The notes beneath the pieces were generated by a model, which worked only from the letters and a program-made list of their open reading frames with translations, had not been told where the DNA came from and ran no database searches. The translations under genes were made by a program, and so were the position numbers. Positions 7,849 through 13,902 of a stretch of DNA of 13,902 nt are shown in pieces. Source of the stretch: Tannerellaceae bacterium (GTDB lineage: Bacteria; Bacteroidota; Bacteroidia; Bacteroidales; Tannerellaceae); the NCBI GenBank assembly GCA_031273385.1, contig JAISRY010000222.1, positions 1 through 13,902 on the forward strand, written 5' to 3'. Each line of letters starts with the position of its first letter. The first letter of the stretch is position 1.

Positions 7849-9204
7849 TTACATTACCGGAGAATCGGGCACTTTTCCAGGCAGGGGCGCAACGCCCTCA
7901 TGGTAATCGGGAAGAGCGCCGAGGGCATACGTTTCGGGGCCGTACCTCAGGGGAGAGGCCATGATTTCGTCCCATGTGATGGGTTTTCCCGTATACGCCG
8001 ATTCGCGCCCGAGGATAGCGACCTGGGTAGAATAGGCCAGGTCTTCCGCCTGGTTGATCTTCTTGTCCAAACGGATCGACTCGACCAAATGGATATGTTC
8101 CTGATCGTACGGATTCTTTACCGGATTGTTGGTATAATCATACTTCCAGAGGATATTCCCGTTATAATCGACGATGCGGGTATCGCTACCGAGGAAAGCG
8201 ATCCCTTTCGAGCCGTAGATCTGTTCGGATACATTCCCGTCGCAACCGTCTATCTGGCGGGCGGTGGTCAGCATGCGCTTATTGTTTTCGTAGTAATAAT
8301 CCACACTGAAGAAGTCGTAGATATCTCCCGTCAGACGCCGCGCCCTGCCGCCGAAACCGACGGCTTTCACCGGGCGTTGCCCCATAAACCACGTCACCAC
8401 GTCAATATTATGGATCGCCTGGTCGAGCAGGTGGTCTCCACTGAGCCATTTGATGTTAAACCAGTTGCGGATACAATACTCCATATCGCTCCACTCCGGG
8501 CGTTTGCGCTTGTTCCACCAAGCGCCCTGGTTCCAGTGGGCGGTAGCCGACAGCACTTCGCCGATCAATCCGTTCCTGACCTGGACGTAGGCTTCCCAGT
8601 AGTCGCGGCTATGCCTGCGCTGGTTTCCCGTAACGACGGTAAGCCCCTTGCCGGTGGCTACCTTGGCGGCGGCTATCACCGTGCGTATGCCGGTAGGGTC
8701 TACGGCGCAGGGTTTTTCCATAAAGATATGCTTCCCTGCATCTACGGCGGCCTTGAAATGTTCGGGCCTGAAATGGGTGGGCGTACAGAGCAGTACCACA
8801 TCTATGTCGCTCCGTCCGATGACTTTCTGATAGGCGTCAAAACCGAAATAGCAGTCTGCGTCCGCCACTTCGTTATTGAATTTCTTTTTCAATACTTCCC
8901 GGCATGAATTCAGCCTGTCGGGGAAGATGTCGGCCAGTGCGATAATGGAAACATTGGGGCCTGCCGAAAGAAACTGCGTCGCTGCGCCCGTGCCCCGGTC
9001 TCCGCAGCCTACCAAAGCAGCCTTCAAGGGCTTGCCGTCGGGCGCTATTTCTACAAAAGAATACATCCCTAATTCTTCCGGGGAAGAGGTTTTAACCGCA
9101 GTTGTGGGTTGTGTATTACAGGATGATAATGCAAACGGGGCTGTCCCCAAGGGGATACCTGCCCCAATCAGCGCTGTGTTAGCTAAAAAATCTCGTCTTT
9201 TCAT
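7849..9204 (-). CDS. Tat-exported Gfo/Idh/MocA family NAD(P)-dependent oxidoreductase
   Basis: Counting from the ATG at 9202-9204, this is a 451-residue protein. It opens with a twin-arginine signal (MKRRDFLANTALIGAG) leading to a lipobox-like LSSC at 26-29, so it is probably folded in the cytoplasm and exported, perhaps lipid-anchored. A Rossmann dinucleotide motif lies at 63-73 (ALVGCGDRGTG), the family EKP motif with its catalytic lysine at 163-165, and the substrate-side helix DQAIHNID at 261-268. These enzymes oxidise or reduce sugars and related polyols, or act as NAD-dependent glycosidases; the substrate cannot be read here. An in-frame GTG at 9226-9228 would add eight polar residues before the signal and is less likely. 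It has its own promoter, so it need not belong to the methyltransferase operon. Confidence 0.9.
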   Translation of the reverse strand: MKRRDFLANTALIGAGIPLGTAPFALSSCNTQPTTAVKTSSPEELGMYSFVEIAPDGKPLKAALVGCGDRGTGAATQFLSAGPNVSIIALADIFPDRLNSCREVLKKKFNNEVADADCYFGFDAYQKVIGRSDIDVVLLCTPTHFRPEHFKAAVDAGKHIFMEKPCAVDPTGIRTVIAAAKVATGKGLTVVTGNQRRHSRDYWEAYVQVRNGLIGEVLSATAHWNQGAWWNKRKRPEWSDMEYCIRNWFNIKWLSGDHLLDQAIHNIDVVTWFMGQRPVKAVGFGGRARRLTGDIYDFFSVDYYYENNKRMLTTARQIDGCDGNVSEQIYGSKGIAFLGSDTRIVDYNGNILWKYDYTNNPVKNPYDQEHIHLVESIRLDKKINQAEDLAYSTQVAILGRESAYTGKPITWDEIMASPLRYGPETYALGALPDYHEGVAPLPGKVPDSPVM

Positions 9205-9230
9205 GGGTTTATCATTATATTTAATCACGG

Positions 9231-9283: not shown

Positions 9284-9985
9284 TTAATTCATTACCGATA
9301 CTTTTTTAAACCGGTAAACACAATGCGTTGCCTCGCATATCCGGCAAGTATATTGATTAAACCGCACATCGGCGCCAATGCCGATAATGCCGCTAACAGA
9401 CTTCATCGGCTGCATCAGTGCGCTATCGGTTAATCGTACTCCCAAATTGGAGGGCAGTTGGGCGAATAATTTATGTTGTTCGACGGTTTGCCAACCACAA
9501 TATCCGGGGCTGTAGCGGTTGGTAATTTTCAACCCTTTGGCTTTCATATTATGACTCAATTCTTTCTGGATTTTGTCGGTAGCGGCTTCCACCACCGCAC
9601 CGCCCAAAATATCGGCGATAAACCCTTTCAACGGTTCGTTTGCGGCAAGCATCGCCCGCGAATATTGCTCGATGCCGACTCCTGCCGTACAGACAAATGC
9701 AGCTATTTGCGAGCTGCGTTTCAACTGATTGAAAATGATTTTTCCAATTTGAAAGGTGGCCTCGCCGACGGTGAGCGTGTAACCGTCTTTGTTGAAATGG
9801 GAATGATCAAAGATGACGTATCCGCCACGAATATCGTAACAACCGGCCGTTTCGTCCATCACCTCCCTGACCATCTCTGTGATCTCTTCCGGCAAATCGC
9901 CATCATAGCCCAACATGGGAGCGGCGGCGTTCGGACTGACCGCCAACTCCCTGTAAGAGAAACGATATTCGACGAATTTGTTCAT
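9284..9985 (-). CDS. Stand-alone MetH-type activation domain protein (corrinoid reductive activation)
   Basis: This 233-residue protein resembles the C-terminal AdoMet-binding activation domain of cobalamin-dependent methionine synthase. Key features are RYSPGY at 157-162 (the family RxxPGY AdoMet loop), an acidic-helix segment ADILGGAVVEAATD at 124-137, and MQPMKSVSGI at 191-200. The family supports reductive remethylation of oxidised cobalamin with AdoMet and an electron donor. Here the domain stands alone, with an N-terminal portion unlike MetH. Cys214, Cys217 and Cys222, plus Cys163 just after the AdoMet loop, could bind an Fe-S cluster or metal; this is inference. The ATG at 9983-9985 is ten bases after the corrinoid-protein stop; a longer in-frame ORF from 10144 overlaps that gene and is not believed. 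Likely role: reactivating the neighbouring corrinoid protein. Confidence 0.85.
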   Translation of the reverse strand: MNKFVEYRFSYRELAVSPNAAAPMLGYDGDLPEEITEMVREVMDETAGCYDIRGGYVIFDHSHFNKDGYTLTVGEATFQIGKIIFNQLKRSSQIAAFVCTAGVGIEQYSRAMLAANEPLKGFIADILGGAVVEAATDKIQKELSHNMKAKGLKITNRYSPGYCGWQTVEQHKLFAQLPSNLGVRLTDSALMQPMKSVSGIIGIGADVRFNQYTCRICEATHCVYRFKKVSVMN

Positions 9986-9995
9986 CGCCTGACTA

Positions 9996-10664
9996 TTACA
10001 CGGATAGTCTATCCAACCAGACAACCAAGCCCTGCGGATCCTTCGTATAAACGTCTGCGTTGATTTGTTTGGCAAAATCGTTATTGATCGGAGCCCCGCC
10101 AATAGCCACTTTGGTCTGCGGATATTTGTTACGAATGAAATCAATAATAGTCGCCATGTTTACCATCGTGGTGGTCAATAGCGCCGAAAGCCCTACGACG
10201 GCATCGGGATGATGATCCAATTCGTCAACGAACTTTTCCGGTTGCACGTCCACGCCCAAGTCTATGACTTCCCAGCCTGCACCCTCTATCATCATGCAGC
10301 AGAGGTTTTTGCCTATATCGTGCAAGTCGCCGAACACCGTACCCATAATGAATGTCCCTTTGCGTTTCACTTCGCCCGATTGGAAATAGGGTTTGAGGTG
10401 TTGCATGGATGCCGCCATCGCTTTGGCTGAAAGCAGCATCTGTGGAACGAATATTTTGTTCTCACTGAATTTTTGCCCCACTTTTTCCATTGCCGGAACA
10501 AGCGCTTTGTTCAGAAGGTCATTGGGAGATACGCCCTCTTCCAATGCCTGTTTCGTCAGCTCGTCACTACCCGGTTGCCCTTTCATCTGTGGAGGATAAG
10601 GCGATGCGGCATTTACTTTCCCGTTTTCTACGCAAATTGCGATCTGTTCGATTAAATTGCTCAT
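9996..10664 (-). CDS. mtaC: Corrinoid (cobalamin-binding) methyl-carrier protein, MtaC-like
   Basis: This 222-residue protein has the two-domain structure of methyltransferase corrinoid proteins. An N-terminal helical cap (about 1-95; VPAMEKVGQKFSENKIFVPQ, LLSAKAMAASMQHLKPYF) precedes a B12-binding Rossmann domain. The domain carries GDLHDIGKN at 112-120, where His115 would be the lower axial cobalt ligand, then a serine/threonine motif (LSALLTTTM) and GGAPIN. It would carry the methyl group as methylcobamide between MtaB and the acceptor-side enzyme. Residues 17-32 (VNAASPYPPQMKGQPG) form a proline/glycine stretch not found in minimal corrinoid proteins. The MtaC name rests on its position 49 bases after mtaB. 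It could serve another donor enzyme as well. Confidence 0.9.
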   Translation of the reverse strand: MSNLIEQIAICVENGKVNAASPYPPQMKGQPGSDELTKQALEEGVSPNDLLNKALVPAMEKVGQKFSENKIFVPQMLLSAKAMAASMQHLKPYFQSGEVKRKGTFIMGTVFGDLHDIGKNLCCMMIEGAGWEVIDLGVDVQPEKFVDELDHHPDAVVGLSALLTTTMVNMATIIDFIRNKYPQTKVAIGGAPINNDFAKQINADVYTKDPQGLVVWLDRLSV

Positions 10665-10713
10665 ATCGTTTACTGTTTTTATGATTGGTTTTTCATTGTC
10701 AATGCTCCATGAA

Positions 10714-12090
10714 TCAAAGCCCGTATTCGGATAAAATGAATTTGCTTTGATCCAGCGCAGGCAGCATCATTTCTATGAAATCGCTTTCGCTGTCGGGGAT
10801 GCCGCTTAATTCGTCCCGTAATACCGGCAAGTAGCCGGTTTCCAATTCGGGAAGTTTCATTTTCCCCGATTGCAAGGCCTCTTCTATCATGTCGATGGCT
10901 TCCAATGCGCCATTGCGCGCGTTTGCCACATAACTTTCGCCTTTTACCAAGGCTTGGGAAATGCGTATCACATTTTCGGGCGCCAGAATGAATGCCTGCG
11001 GATCGGTATATATGTCGGAGTCAACCAATAATTTCTGCAAAATATGCGTAGGAACGCTTCCTGCTTTCAGGGCTTCGTTCATCAATCGTACATCATATTC
11101 CAACTGTTCCATATACACTGTCGGCGCCATTCCTGCCAGCAATTTGATGTTTTGCACCGATTCATTGCTCCATAAGTCGGCCGCCGCCGCAGCGATGTTG
11201 CCGACGGGACTGAGATGAGCGCAAGCAGCGGTTTTACCCTCCATTGAAATAGGGATACCTGCAATCGCTTTGATGAAAACACCCTCGTAACCGCAATCTT
11301 TGTGAGGCCCCGTTGCGCCCTCTTCGACGGCAACGATGGAACGGACAACGGAAATGACCCGTACCAAGGCGGCAAAGACCCGGGGAATCATTCTTTGTTC
11401 GGCCAGCACCATCGCCGTATTAGCAAATCCACACGCCGTATCGCCTCCGGCTATTTTGCCGGTTTTGTCCGCTATGGCTTTAATCTTCTTCCACAAGAAA
11501 TGCATATCTCTCACGCCTAATACGGCGAGTGCAAACGTAATGGCCTTAATGTCACACATCAACAGGGCGCCATCCGAGACCTCTTTACCTCCGGTACTTT
11601 CGATAGACAGCAGGTCGCCGCCCGCCAAAGCGCCTTTCTCGAAAAGTTCAAACATCGGTTCGAGTAAAGCCGATGTCCGTTGTTTGGCGGGACGTTCAAA
11701 CTCCCGCAAATCATTTGGCGTCAAACGAATTTCAGACTTTAGCCCATATTTTTGGTAATAATCTTCACAGGTTTCATTCATGATGTTTACCACTTCTATT
11801 CCGATGGACGGTGTTTTAGTCATTTCGAGTAGCGTTTCCAGTTCCAGGACTACGCCTTTGGAATGAAGTTCCAACGCCCTTTGAAGCGCACCCTCGGCAA
11901 TCTCTTTGTAATGCCGGTACACATCGGGCAAGGTGTCGTTGTTGATGCTCATCATGGGCAGGGTAAAGTTCAATTCGGCATAGACTTGTCCTCCACCGAT
12001 CTCCAAGCCTCTCCGGGTGGTTACCGGATGGGGTGCATTCCCGAAGAGTAATTCCGTCGGATCATTGATGATTAGTTCTTTGTATTTCAT
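10714..12090 (-). CDS. mtaB: Methanol:corrinoid methyltransferase, MtaB type
   Basis: This 458-residue protein aligns by eye along its whole length with methanogen MtaB, which is of similar size (about 460). Shared blocks include FGNAPHPV..GLEIGGG near 16-34, LLSIESTGGKE at 160-170, GGDTACGFANTAM at 215-227, GPHKDCGYE at 261-269, SMEGKTAACAH at 282-292, DLWSNESV and DPQAFILA. The zinc ligands known for Methanosarcina MtaB (Glu164, Cys220, Cys269) correspond to Glu164, Cys220 and Cys266 here, so methanol activation on zinc is chemically possible. The enzyme would move the methyl group of methanol to Co(I) on the adjacent corrinoid protein in the cytoplasm. A related methylated substrate is possible. 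It starts 23 bases after the UroD-like gene. Confidence 0.9.
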   Translation of the reverse strand: MKYKELIINDPTELLFGNAPHPVTTRRGLEIGGGQVYAELNFTLPMMSINNDTLPDVYRHYKEIAEGALQRALELHSKGVVLELETLLEMTKTPSIGIEVVNIMNETCEDYYQKYGLKSEIRLTPNDLREFERPAKQRTSALLEPMFELFEKGALAGGDLLSIESTGGKEVSDGALLMCDIKAITFALAVLGVRDMHFLWKKIKAIADKTGKIAGGDTACGFANTAMVLAEQRMIPRVFAALVRVISVVRSIVAVEEGATGPHKDCGYEGVFIKAIAGIPISMEGKTAACAHLSPVGNIAAAAADLWSNESVQNIKLLAGMAPTVYMEQLEYDVRLMNEALKAGSVPTHILQKLLVDSDIYTDPQAFILAPENVIRISQALVKGESYVANARNGALEAIDMIEEALQSGKMKLPELETGYLPVLRDELSGIPDSESDFIEMMLPALDQSKFILSEYGL

Positions 12091-12113
12091 GAGTATGGAG
12101 TATAAAGATTAGA

Positions 12114-13373
12114 TTATTTTTTTCTTATCTCGCAGATGGCATCCATTAATGCAATGACATTTTCTACCGGCACATTTGCCTGTATGTTATGAATGGAGTT
12201 GAAGACAAAGCCACCGTTTTTGCCGAAGATCTCACATAGCCGGTACGTTTGATCCCTGACCTTTTGGGGTGTAGCCAACGGCAACACTTTTTGCGTATCT
12301 ATACCGCCGCCCCAGAAAGTAACCCGACTGCCGAACGTATCTTTCAAAAATTGCGGATCCATGCCTGCCGCATTAATTTGTACCGGATTGATAATATCAA
12401 ATCCCATGTCAATCATTGTATCTAACAGGGGGACGATAGAGCCACAGCAATGTTTGAACGTTTTCCAATGGGTATGTTGATGTATCCAGTTATTTACTTT
12501 CCGGTAGGCATCTCCATAAAGCGCCTCAAGCCCCTCCGCCGAACAAAACTGACTGTCTTGTGTTCCGAAATCGGTGCCGCAGGTGTAGATAATATCAATG
12601 CAATCACCTGCTGCCTGATTGATTTTTGCGAGATTTTGAATAGCGATATCTGTTTGGCGATCGAATATTTCACGTAGAAAATCTTCGCGAACGATAGTGG
12701 ACATATACCAGTCGGCAATGGCGCGAATGCCTTTGGGATTTTTTAGCCCCATCGCCGGAACTAAAGCGACATCGCCCAATCCCGTACCGCCGATATTGGC
12801 GACCACCGACTTGCCTGTCGCCCTTGCTTTCGATAAGGCGCCTTTCCAATAGGCAAGGTCGTCGTCGGTTAGTGGGGTAAATTCTTCCAGGTTATCCTCC
12901 AATTTGAGTTCCGTATCAAAATCAGTTGCAGGAACCCGTTCGATGGCATCAAAGAAGAAGCCGCTTGCAGGCATCATTGCCGAAGGGGGATAGTTGGTAT
13001 CGCCTTGTGGGAAAACGTATGTGTTTCCGTTCTCTTCTTTCATTTTGAAACATTCCGGCAGTAACACGACCTGCCCCCAGGGCATCCGTTTTTCAACAAA
13101 ATTTTCCTGCCGGTGTCCCATCATGTCATAAGGGCCGCTTACTCCGATAGCATCCACGTCCCATAATTTTGCCAATTCTTCATCCACTTCTCCGAGCATT
13201 TGGAAAGGCTCAATCACTTTCACGGGCTTATCTTCTAATCCGTAATGTCGCCTTAGCGCGGCGATTTGCTTTACATGAATGCCGGTTATCGGGGTAGCGC
13301 CAAAGTCCAGTGCGATTTTATCCGCTTCATGATGGGATAATACCCTATCGATTCGTTCTTTTCCTGTCATCAT
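12114..13373 (-). CDS. Uroporphyrinogen-decarboxylase-family methyltransferase (MtaA/MtbA-like)
   Basis: This 419-residue protein belongs to the UroD superfamily that includes the methylcobamide:acceptor methyltransferases. It starts MMTGKERIDRVLSHHEADKI (typical family N-terminus) and has NIGGTGLGD near 193-201 and a probable zinc motif HCCG at 308-311 (His308, Cys310). FNPV-type features and the ending VFNSIHNIQANVPVENVIAL follow. The third zinc cysteine of MtaA, expected near residue 395 in a PGC context, is replaced here by SIH, where His395 could substitute. With no sign of coenzyme M biosynthesis, the acceptor is probably not CoM; tetrahydrofolate or homocysteine is a guess. A role as a second donor-side demethylase is possible, since some O-demethylases are UroD-like. 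Either adjacent ATG (13371-13373 or 13368-13370) could be the start. Confidence 0.85.
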   Translation of the reverse strand: MMTGKERIDRVLSHHEADKIALDFGATPITGIHVKQIAALRRHYGLEDKPVKVIEPFQMLGEVDEELAKLWDVDAIGVSGPYDMMGHRQENFVEKRMPWGQVVLLPECFKMKEENGNTYVFPQGDTNYPPSAMMPASGFFFDAIERVPATDFDTELKLEDNLEEFTPLTDDDLAYWKGALSKARATGKSVVANIGGTGLGDVALVPAMGLKNPKGIRAIADWYMSTIVREDFLREIFDRQTDIAIQNLAKINQAAGDCIDIIYTCGTDFGTQDSQFCSAEGLEALYGDAYRKVNNWIHQHTHWKTFKHCCGSIVPLLDTMIDMGFDIINPVQINAAGMDPQFLKDTFGSRVTFWGGGIDTQKVLPLATPQKVRDQTYRLCEIFGKNGGFVFNSIHNIQANVPVENVIALMDAICEIRKK

Positions 13374-13382
13374 TTTTTTCCG

Positions 13383-13413
13383 TAAATTTAGGTATATTTT
13401 TTTTATCTACAAA
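13383..13413 (-). promoter_or_regulatory. Putative promoter of the methyltransferase operon
   Basis: On the minus strand TTTG (13410-13413) is followed after exactly 19 bp by TAAATTTA (13383-13390), which differs from TAnnTTTG only in the last base. The start codon is 9 bases downstream of the -7 box, which would leave a leader of only a few nucleotides. I see no cobalamin riboswitch between this and the repeats upstream. Confidence 0.5.
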
Positions 13414-13501: not shown

Positions 13502-13529
13502 GTAGAGACGCAAAATTTTGCGTCTCTAC
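13502..13529. repeat. 28-bp perfect extragenic palindrome
   Basis: The 14-base arm GTAGAGACGCAAAA (13502-13515) is followed directly by its exact complement (13516-13529), giving a loop-free perfect palindrome. It is intergenic and lies between the heptamer repeats and a CG-rich hairpin. It resembles repeated extragenic palindromes that recur in Bacteroidetes genomes; I recall the motif but cannot check copy number here. Confidence 0.8.
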
Positions 13530-13561: not shown

Positions 13562-13680
13562 GATAGGGTTTTCCCCTAAGATTCTTAAGCCCCTTATAAT
13601 GACAACGATTGGCTCTCGTAGAGAGCACGCCAACTCTCAACTCGCCTTTGCATAGCTATGTTAGCTCTCTGACCTCCCTC

Positions 13681-13902
13681 ACACAGGGGATGGGAAAGAC
13701 CGCCTGGTGTCAACGGCTACTACCTCCCGAACTACAAAACTATTACATTTCGGGTAGCCCGCGCTTCGGTCAGCGCGATACGCTGATCGCCATGTCACGC
13801 GTTTGCCTGTACAATATAGATGAGTACGATGTCTTTGGCCCAAAACAGGTGAATCTACTTAAGGAGATGACCTCCAAGCCCACGATAGACGAACGGGCAG
13901 CC
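13681..13902 (+). pseudogene. VirE-like P-loop ATPase fragment, 5' end apparently missing; runs off the window
   Basis: From about 13681 the plus frame reads TQGMGKTAWCQRLLPPELQ, then YYISGS, RDTLIAMSRVCLYNIDEYD and KQVNLLKEMTSKPTIDERAA, to the window edge. This matches the ATPase core of VirE (virulence-associated E) proteins: a Walker A GKT, a Walker B-like NIDEYD, and the lysine/threonine block before an arginine. Such proteins are helicase/primase-like and usually belong to prophages or mobile elements. They normally have several hundred residues before the P-loop. Here the frame reaches back only to a TGA at 13600-13602, through sequence that reads like translated repeats, and there is no ATG before the one within the motif (13690). 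The gene therefore looks truncated at its 5' end. What lies beyond 13902 cannot be seen. Confidence 0.6.

Follow-up and report, generated by a model that had tools for sequence, protein, structure and literature searches.

What becomes of a methyl group that a Bacteroidales bacterium takes from methanol? The question is raised by a 13,902-base stretch of DNA (the window), which makes up the whole of contig JAISRY010000222.1 in the genome assembly of a Tannerellaceae bacterium that has close relatives in termite guts (GCA_031273385.1; 2.3 Mb, 251 contigs, approximately 70% complete) and which carries an operon for corrinoid-dependent methyl transfer. An earlier note on this DNA had described four same-strand genes separated by 23, 49 and 10 bases and had left the fate of the methyl group as the issue to settle. 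The layout is exactly as described (gaps at 12091-12113, 10665-10713 and 9986-9995), and the fate of the methyl group was the right question to pose. Our analysis, which draws on sequence comparison and structure prediction, shows a genuine methanol-type corrinoid operon with an acetogen-like front, for which no counterpart of the acetogen's folate exit was found, the most likely exit being methionine. Stated in full, the reading we prefer – tentatively, and with confidence that falls somewhat short of even – is that the operon's enzymes would charge the carrier MtaC with methyl groups taken from methanol, and likely also from another O-methyl compound, and that homocysteine, not folate or coenzyme M, would most likely receive them, yielding methionine.

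The genes lie on the minus strand in the order UroD-like, mtaB, mtaC and ACT, each with an ATG start according to open reading frame coordinates and sequence:

13383..13413, minus strand: promoter-like TTTG-N19-TAAATTTA, 5′ of the UroD-like gene and the operon (sequence)
12114..13373, minus strand: UroD-like methyltransferase, 419 residues, site His308-x-Cys310 ... His395 (Pfam URO-D, AlphaFold2 model, alignment)
10714..12090, minus strand: mtaB, predicted acetogen-type methanol:corrinoid methyltransferase, 458 residues (Pfam MtaB, 2i2x_A alignment, tree)
9996..10664, minus strand: mtaC, corrinoid carrier protein, 222 residues, B12 motif GDLHDIGKN (Pfam, PDB match)
9284..9985, minus strand: ACT, stand-alone MetH-activation-fold protein, 233 residues, predicted corrinoid reactivase (Pfam, AlphaFold2 fold match)

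In the scheme we propose, MtaB would pass the methyl group of methanol to MtaC, while the UroD-like protein, as a second donor-side O-demethylase, would charge the same MtaC from another compound, methylated plant sugars being the present substrate lead. ACT would return inactive Co(II) to Co(I), probably with S-adenosylmethionine (SAM) and an iron-sulfur cluster as electron relay. The methyl group would then leave MtaC for homocysteine through MetH or, in some relatives, through a stand-alone homocysteine methyltransferase.

The case for methanol as a predicted substrate begins with MtaB. The protein scores 541 bits on Pfam MtaB (cut-off 25), and Glu164, Cys220 and Cys266 – which we take to be the zinc ligands – match the 2i2x positions in the 2i2x_A alignment and are kept in 113 of 113 aligned MtaBs. 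A tree of these 113 rows, built by a quick method and with long branches flagged (a caution against leaning on it too heavily), separates 10 methanogen-type sequences from 103 others with Shimodaira–Hasegawa-like approximate likelihood-ratio support of 100. The smaller side holds 2i2x, one Bacteroidales genome (G042) and eight Firmicutes; the larger holds the window, Bacteroidota and 18 Firmicutes rows, 17 of which form one group and one of which lies inside Bacteroidota. The Firmicutes came from a phylum sample drawn round the genome of a locus named Clostridiales (L072), with 26 usable rows: eight methanogen-type, 17 grouped beside Bacteroidota, and L072's own. All 10 methanogen-type rows have Gln at residue 222, two positions after the zinc cysteine, and 102 of the 103 others have Phe.

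The known methanol operon that lies nearest is that of Moorella thermoacetica, for which the portions of PMC13391211 consulted give proteins of 29.7, 22.3 and 52.8 kDa, a 675-bp neighbour, and a log2 rise of 9.0-9.9 in transcripts on methanol. Locus L193, on the window's side of the tree, has a gene row for a 29.7-kDa folate methyltransferase, a 22.3-kDa corrinoid protein and a 53.3-kDa MtaB (counted from the first start codon), adjoined by a 675-bp corrinoid gene; by layout and masses its operon appears to match the methanol-induced operon of Moorella. The window MtaB is 52% identical to that of L193 and 37% identical to 2i2x. Because it groups with the Moorella-like MtaB, and because the best PDB match of MtaC is 1y80, we keep methanol as its predicted substrate. 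A methanogen-type identity was rejected, given a score of 425 bits against the 720-bit cut-off of the NCBIfam MtaB_Meth equivalog and a position across the tree split. The possibility, raised in the earlier note, that MtaB falls outside the methanol clade with changed residues is thus borne out with respect to the methanogen-type group and not otherwise, since the protein sits with the acetogen-type Firmicutes MtaBs and shares their Q222-to-F change.

MtaC scores 76.7 bits on Pfam B12-binding and 65.5 on B12-binding_2, its match to 1y80 has an E value of 5e-46, and 1y80 is identical to the MtaC of L193 over the 40 residues compared. The DxHxxG motif is present in 54 of 54 members of the mtaC cluster. 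The NCBIfam MtaC equivalogs, which are methanogen models, give 114.3 and 110.3 bits against cut-offs of 450 and 420; the MtgC model gives 178.6 bits (cut-off 370), above the methanogen MtaC model scores.

A separate methanogen-type pair was observed in G042, a genome that also belongs to Bacteroidales. At L140:7931-11796 (contig C25; also L004) an mtaC-like gene and mtaB stand together, the MtaB scoring 676.6 bits and lying on the methanogen side of the tree; a RamA-like protein follows, and two-component-type genes lie upstream (both by eye).

Related operons are spread across Bacteroidota, though rare. Searching genome contigs with an alignment of 18 MtaB sequences gave 273 related stretches, of which 80 were kept; with the window these make 81 mtaB loci, taken to a maximum of 8 kb on each side and many cut by contig ends, so that all counts from them are lower bounds. 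Seventy of the 80 are labelled Bacteroidota, the others being Spirochaetes, Ignavibacteria, Calditrichota, Victivallaceae and the one named Clostridiales, whose MtaB is placed among Bacteroidota in the tree. Cultured species are represented by Draconibacterium aestuarii, Sunxiuqinia indica and Labilibacter sediminis. The nearest MtaBs (88-92% identity) belong to Bacteroidia MS499-82 and MS502-39, one Bacteroidales metagenome-assembled genome, and Candidatus Symbiothrix dinenymphae, which we take to be a termite-gut symbiont; homologues labelled 'termite gut metagenome' reach 86% identity for MtaB, 77% for the UroD-like protein and 70% for ACT. In an even sample of the phylum, mtaB was present in four of 391 other Bacteroidota genomes. 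Recurring neighbours in the 81 loci were mtaC of one cluster (54), an AraC-type regulator (33), the UroD family (28), a CobW GTPase (28), a RACo-type reactivase (28), ACT (17) and a Gfo/Idh cluster (12). In L011, L012, L015 and L019, whose MtaBs are 81-92% identical to that of the window, mtaB, mtaC and ACT stay together.

On which side of the relay does the UroD-like protein act? It scores 45.5 bits on Pfam URO-D (cut-off 23.9), and its AlphaFold2 model (predicted local distance difference test, pLDDT, 91.6) finds as best PDB match the coenzyme M methyltransferase MtaA of M. mazei (4ay8; target template modelling score, TM, 0.66); solved-structure searches with its sequence (E 0.001) and with its alignment (E 0.01) gave no match. 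His308, Cys310 and His395 are present in 121 of 121 rows, comprising the window and the best 120 of 7,974 database matches. The protein does not have the His-Cys-Cys zinc site of the thiol type: His395 stands at the place of the third Cys in every row. As set out in the portions of PMC10418091 consulted, the zinc site of S-methyltransferases in the UroD superfamily is His-Cys-Cys, and in O-methyltransferases carboxylate or non-coordinating residues occur as replacements. On the NCBIfam MtaA and MtaA/CmuA models the protein scores 20.4, 24.2 and 29.8 bits against cut-offs of 400, 235.4 and 244. Site and scores together led us to reject a coenzyme M acceptor of the classic MtaA kind; genes for coenzyme M synthesis were not searched.

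The distribution of the gene is also informative. Window-type UroD is present in nine of the 81 mtaB loci; it abuts mtaB in seven (the window, L021, L042, L046, L047, L053 and L056), and in L015 the two genes share a cluster. It is found in three of the 391 other Bacteroidota genomes, of which two (G338 and G415) gave no mtaB in that set. At L135 its neighbours are another UroD, GH3, GH26, PL14, Gfo/Idh and a 3-keto-disaccharide-hydrolase-like protein, and at L137 another UroD and a beta-helix protein. Because the UroD-like protein fails the thiol-type site, occurs without mtaB, and there has glycan-type surroundings, we consider it, with moderate confidence, a probable second methyl-donor enzyme – a donor-side O-demethylase – that shares MtaC.

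The alternative is that the UroD-like protein works on the acceptor side, moving the methyl group of methyl-MtaC to a thiol (homocysteine, sulfide or coenzyme M) or to folate and so closing a methanol relay of the operon's own, as the earlier note proposed. Apart from MtaB it is the operon's sole methyltransferase, its nearest solved fold is that of an acceptor enzyme, MtaA, and searches with the Pterin_bind and MtrH profiles found no other acceptor; its adjacency to mtaB (the seven loci and L015) suits such a partner equally well. In eight other mtaB loci, moreover, there is a UroD of a different kind that retains the full His-Cys-Cys site; it may be a thiol acceptor there. Against this stand the invariant His395, the low scores on the acceptor models and the genomes that have the gene but gave no mtaB, and we regard an acceptor role as unlikely, though deserving of serious attention. 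The claim that the four genes encode every protein type needed for a relay is accordingly too strong: the UroD-like protein is without the third Cys and occurs without mtaB, and no stand-alone folate methyltransferase was found.

The remaining member of the operon, ACT, is the predicted reactivase. It scores 43.5 bits on Pfam Met_synt_B12 (cut-off 25), and its AlphaFold2 model (pLDDT 88.5) best matches 1j6r (target TM 0.86), followed by the MetH structures 6bdy, 6bm5 and 1msk. Four cysteines – Cys163, Cys214, Cys217 and Cys222 – are found without exception in all 137 ACT rows, which comprise the best 120 of 3,801 matches and 17 from the loci, the window and perhaps others being counted twice. 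None of the four is found at the aligned places of the genome's own MetH, although that alignment is loose, and TM0269 has Gly at the position of Cys163. The window protein carries RYSPGY, an instance of RxxPGY, which we take to be the SAM-binding motif; across the 137 rows the Arg is kept in 131, the Pro and Gly in 137 and the Tyr in 130. Because four fixed cysteines occur in a predicted corrinoid reductase, the data suggest a corrinoid reactivase with an iron-sulfur cluster, zinc being also possible. A RACo_C_ter protein was not found among the 10 window proteins scanned, the rest of the genome not having been searched; across the loci, ACT occurs without RACo in 10 (window included) and with it in seven.

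The fate of the methyl group is the central issue. In acetogens, according to the part of PMC13391211 consulted, the methyl group passes to folate through MtaA. The Pterin_bind profile recognises such enzymes, scoring 79-96 bits on four Firmicutes folate methyltransferases that served as positive control, and a Pterin_bind methyltransferase lies near mtaB in eight of 15 Firmicutes regions from the window's side of the tree. Across 21 mtaB-bearing genomes (that of the window plus 20 more, L011 left out) the same profile, at E 0.001, found a MetH-length protein in 21 and a protein of dihydropteroate synthase size in 19 (218-256 bits), with no third protein in any. MtrH exceeded its cut-off in none of 22 Bacteroidota-side genomes (the 21 and G338), two sub-threshold matches falling inside MetH-length frames; of two Firmicutes controls, G529 gave four matches and G484 three sub-threshold ones. 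Finally, a profile of eight Firmicutes folate enzymes found no similar open reading frame in 95 loci, window included. Because neither the draft genome nor the relatives covered by the search gave a stand-alone folate methyltransferase, methionine is the likely destination of the methyl group, and homocysteine is the likeliest acceptor, via MetH or a stand-alone methyltransferase.

Some of the machinery for this exit can be seen. The earlier note had called for a check of metH and metF: the genome does have a complete MetH, full-length and with its own activation domain, and MetF was not found in the assembly. MetF is present in 15 of 18 genomes and in seven of seven genus mates searched; FTHFS is present in nine of 18, own assembly included, and in none of the three cultured isolates. 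A stand-alone homocysteine methyltransferase accompanies MetH in eight of 19 mtaB-bearing Bacteroidota-side genomes. Ten neighbourhoods of this enzyme (L136 and L151-L159) were compared: corrinoid genes occur in L136, L151 and L152, in each of which the enzyme adjoins a corrinoid protein, and profiles detected none in the other seven, one of which is a 4.3-kb contig. In L151 (from G061, the genome that holds the Bacteroidia MS502-39 loci) rhamnose mutarotase, mtaB, GH31, an unassigned protein, UroD and a short unassigned protein are followed by RhaT, an SSF transporter, homocysteine methyltransferase, mtaC, ACT, GH141, an MFS transporter and alpha-rhamnosidase. In Draconibacterium aestuarii a second corrinoid operon (L152:8070-12602) comprises an mtaC paralogue, a UroD-thioredoxin fusion, homocysteine methyltransferase and CobW. 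L136 (G338), which has no mtaB, holds GH42, window-type UroD, mtaC, a second UroD, ACT, a third UroD, homocysteine methyltransferase and a sugar transporter.

Several observations nonetheless weigh against the reading we prefer. On the donor side, His is not among the O-methyltransferase replacements given in the part of PMC10418091 consulted, and His can also bind zinc; 53 of the 81 mtaB loci showed no UroD belonging to the cluster, many of these stretches being short. In ACT, the Arg of RxxPGY is Ser in six of the 137 rows. On the acceptor side, MetH has its own corrinoid domain, and transfer from MtaC to MetH is a prediction; the stand-alone homocysteine methyltransferase lies beside corrinoid genes in only two of the eight genomes that have it, and in the window's assembly neither it nor MetF was found, MetH being the sole candidate. 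Since the genome is approximately 70% complete, acceptor genes may simply be missing. To these may be added, from the glycan comparison that follows, that sugar families other than Gfo/Idh are not individually enriched near mtaB (p 0.07-0.28, measured against all 306 far genes).

That comparison set 108 non-core genes in same-strand runs with mtaB, from 43 loci (the near set), against 306 distant genes (the far set). Near genes included Gfo/Idh (7), alpha-rhamnosidase-like proteins (4), MFS transporters (4), sugar porters (3) and MGH1-like proteins (3), with two each of GH127, GH31, ROK and 3-keto-disaccharide hydrolase. A random 108 of the far genes showed no Gfo/Idh, sugar porter, GH127, GH31 or 3-keto-disaccharide hydrolase among its 25 families of two or more members; two MFS transporters, two alpha-rhamnosidase C-terminal domains and two xylose-isomerase-like proteins were present. 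By profile count Gfo/Idh made up seven of 108 near and four of 306 far genes (p 0.009, uncorrected and from related loci). Homocysteine methyltransferase numbered none near and two far, the run rule having put the L029/L151 gene in the far set. The glycan link of the mtaB loci is a real but weak lead.

Could the whole cluster serve O-methylated plant sugars, with MtaB and the UroD-like protein both acting on glycan methyl groups and free methanol incidental? In some relatives the genes do stand among sugar transporters, glycoside hydrolases, Gfo/Idh proteins, 3-keto-disaccharide hydrolases, a xylulokinase-like kinase and a rhamnose transporter, and the Gfo/Idh excess points the same way. But Gfo/Idh is the sole family individually enriched, the related loci are not independent, many mtaB loci show no adjoining glycan genes, and the surroundings of the MtaB zinc site are those common to acetogen-type MtaB; we judge this alternative distinctly improbable. 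As an observation in its own right, in L030:2281-14218 and L029 mtaB shares an operon with PdxA, an SBD_N/NBD_C kinase, an iron alcohol dehydrogenase, rhamnose mutarotase, GH31 and a sodium symporter, which suggests a role in acid-sugar use.

The contig that carries the operon is Bacteroidales: the S41-DUF3316-ParC block of the window is present in eight of eight genus mates examined (of 17), with ParC 93% identical in the nearest. Contamination from an archaeon or a Firmicute – the misassembly that the earlier note had feared – was rejected on the ParC neighbourhood and because 70 of the 80 relatives of the operon are labelled Bacteroidota. The first description, of a real corrinoid operon in Bacteroidales that has a methanol-type MtaB and its carrier, is upheld by Pfam, tree and ParC neighbourhood. 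mtaB was found in none of the 17 other genus members (several incomplete), and the operon in none of six genus mates, of the eight examined, with contigs long enough 5′ of ParC. The GC content at third codon positions (GC3) is 0.49-0.56 in the four operon genes versus 0.61-0.70 in five flanking genes. Because the operon was not found in genus mates and its GC3 differs from that of its flanks, the data fit either acquisition here or loss by other members of the genus. No match was found in 72,556 plasmid records. That the operon is a recent, possibly non-functional import without a settled host role would suit the lack of the operon in the genus mates searched and the GC3 difference, but is very improbable given four intact reading frames, conserved catalytic residues and relatives (L011, L012, L015 and L019) that keep mtaB, mtaC and ACT together.

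Other features of the window and its relatives merit record. Base 13413, the upper end of the stretch marked in the earlier note, is the first base of TTTG, and 19 bases separate TTTG from TAAATTTA; the arrangement resembles what we take to be the Bacteroidetes promoter consensus and is a candidate promoter. Downstream of the operon lies a further gene:

7849..9228, minus strand: Gfo/Idh/MocA oxidoreductase, Tat-like leader seen by eye, lying 55 bases beyond the operon's last gene (Pfam, neighbours)

Genes of this family recur beside such operons. Because its GC3 (0.64) is host-like and it has its own TATATTTG element upstream, we do not confidently count it in the operon, and it perhaps lies outside the operon transcript. 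Upstream of the operon, positions 13502-13529 form a perfect 28-base palindrome, GTAGAGACGCAAAATTTTGCGTCTCTAC, whose 22-base core was found in two of 238 loci, both copies of the window, and in no other locus. A 98-codon open frame on the plus strand (13609-13902) runs off the contig end; its sole PDB match (E 0.52) is not significant. A CobW-family GTPase, which may load zinc or corrinoid, adjoins mtaB and mtaC in loci from either side of the MtaB tree (L187-L191; 28 of 81 mtaB loci), and near methanogen-type Firmicutes mtaB it was seen in all five regions examined, of eight. A common block of three genes (clusters 12-14) flanks the mtaB operon in L016, L018, L032, L041 and L043.

What would the preferred reading mean? 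The bacterial methanol methyltransferase systems described in the portions of PMC13391211 and PMC10418091 consulted end on folate, and here a matching methanol front end recurs among Bacteroidota, cultured species included, for which no folate step was found. If the methyl group goes to methionine, methanol from plant polymers would supply an amino-acid methyl group, not energy, and methylotrophic methanogens might face competition from these bacteria for methanol. The four-cysteine activation protein, if our prediction is true, would add to the MetH domain and RACo a third route by which oxidised corrinoid proteins are revived. A bolder proposal, which we put forward as decidedly speculative and rather unlikely as a whole, is a folate-free methyl salvage in anaerobic Bacteroidota: methanol through MtaB and plant-glycan O-methyl groups through a His-Cys-His UroD clade would meet on one corrinoid protein, kept reduced by a new four-cysteine, iron-sulfur ACT, and the methyl group would go straight to homocysteine, coupling glycan digestion to methionine synthesis. 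In Dysgonomonas, methanol metabolism is called unreported in the part of PMC4031174 consulted; neither an mtaB operon from Bacteroidota nor an activation protein with four cysteines was described in the titles and abstract openings listed from the open-licence PMC literature, and the combination of UroD-like partner and four-cysteine reactivase is a variant without a report in those listings.

Comparison with known systems places the operon between several of them. With the acetogen mtaA-mtaC-mtaB of Moorella thermoacetica and Acetobacterium woodii, as described in the portions of PMC13391211 consulted, it shares the MtaB group and the type of MtaC; it lacks the Pterin_bind MtaA and has instead the UroD-like and activation-fold proteins. 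With methanogen MtaABC, a methanol:coenzyme M system, it has in common the MtaB fold, the zinc ligands and a UroD-superfamily partner (MtaA there), but its MtaB lies across the deepest split of the tree (425 versus 720 bits) and its UroD-like protein is without His-Cys-Cys. In MtgBCDE of Ruegeria (PMC12478193, portions consulted) one corrinoid protein likewise joins demethylation to methionine synthesis; Ruegeria, however, also uses the Pterin_bind protein MtgD, of which no counterpart was found here, and the present host retains a complete MetH. The type 1 mlp clusters, as portrayed in the portions of PMC10418091 consulted, resemble the operon in bringing together UroD-superfamily methyltransferases, a corrinoid protein and a reactivase without a folate methyltransferase, but their Mlp proteins are mostly of the His-Cys-Cys kind and their reactivase is Ram/RACE, with mtaB outside the core genes described. 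Such a cluster would have at least Mlp2 and Mlp3 with His-Cys-Cys, and the operon has one UroD with His-Cys-His, the rest of the genome not having been searched. Lastly, TM0269 of Thermotoga maritima (1j6r) shares with ACT a stand-alone MetH-activation fold, from which the ACT family is set apart by Cys163, where TM0269 has Gly, and by a C-terminal CxxCx4C.

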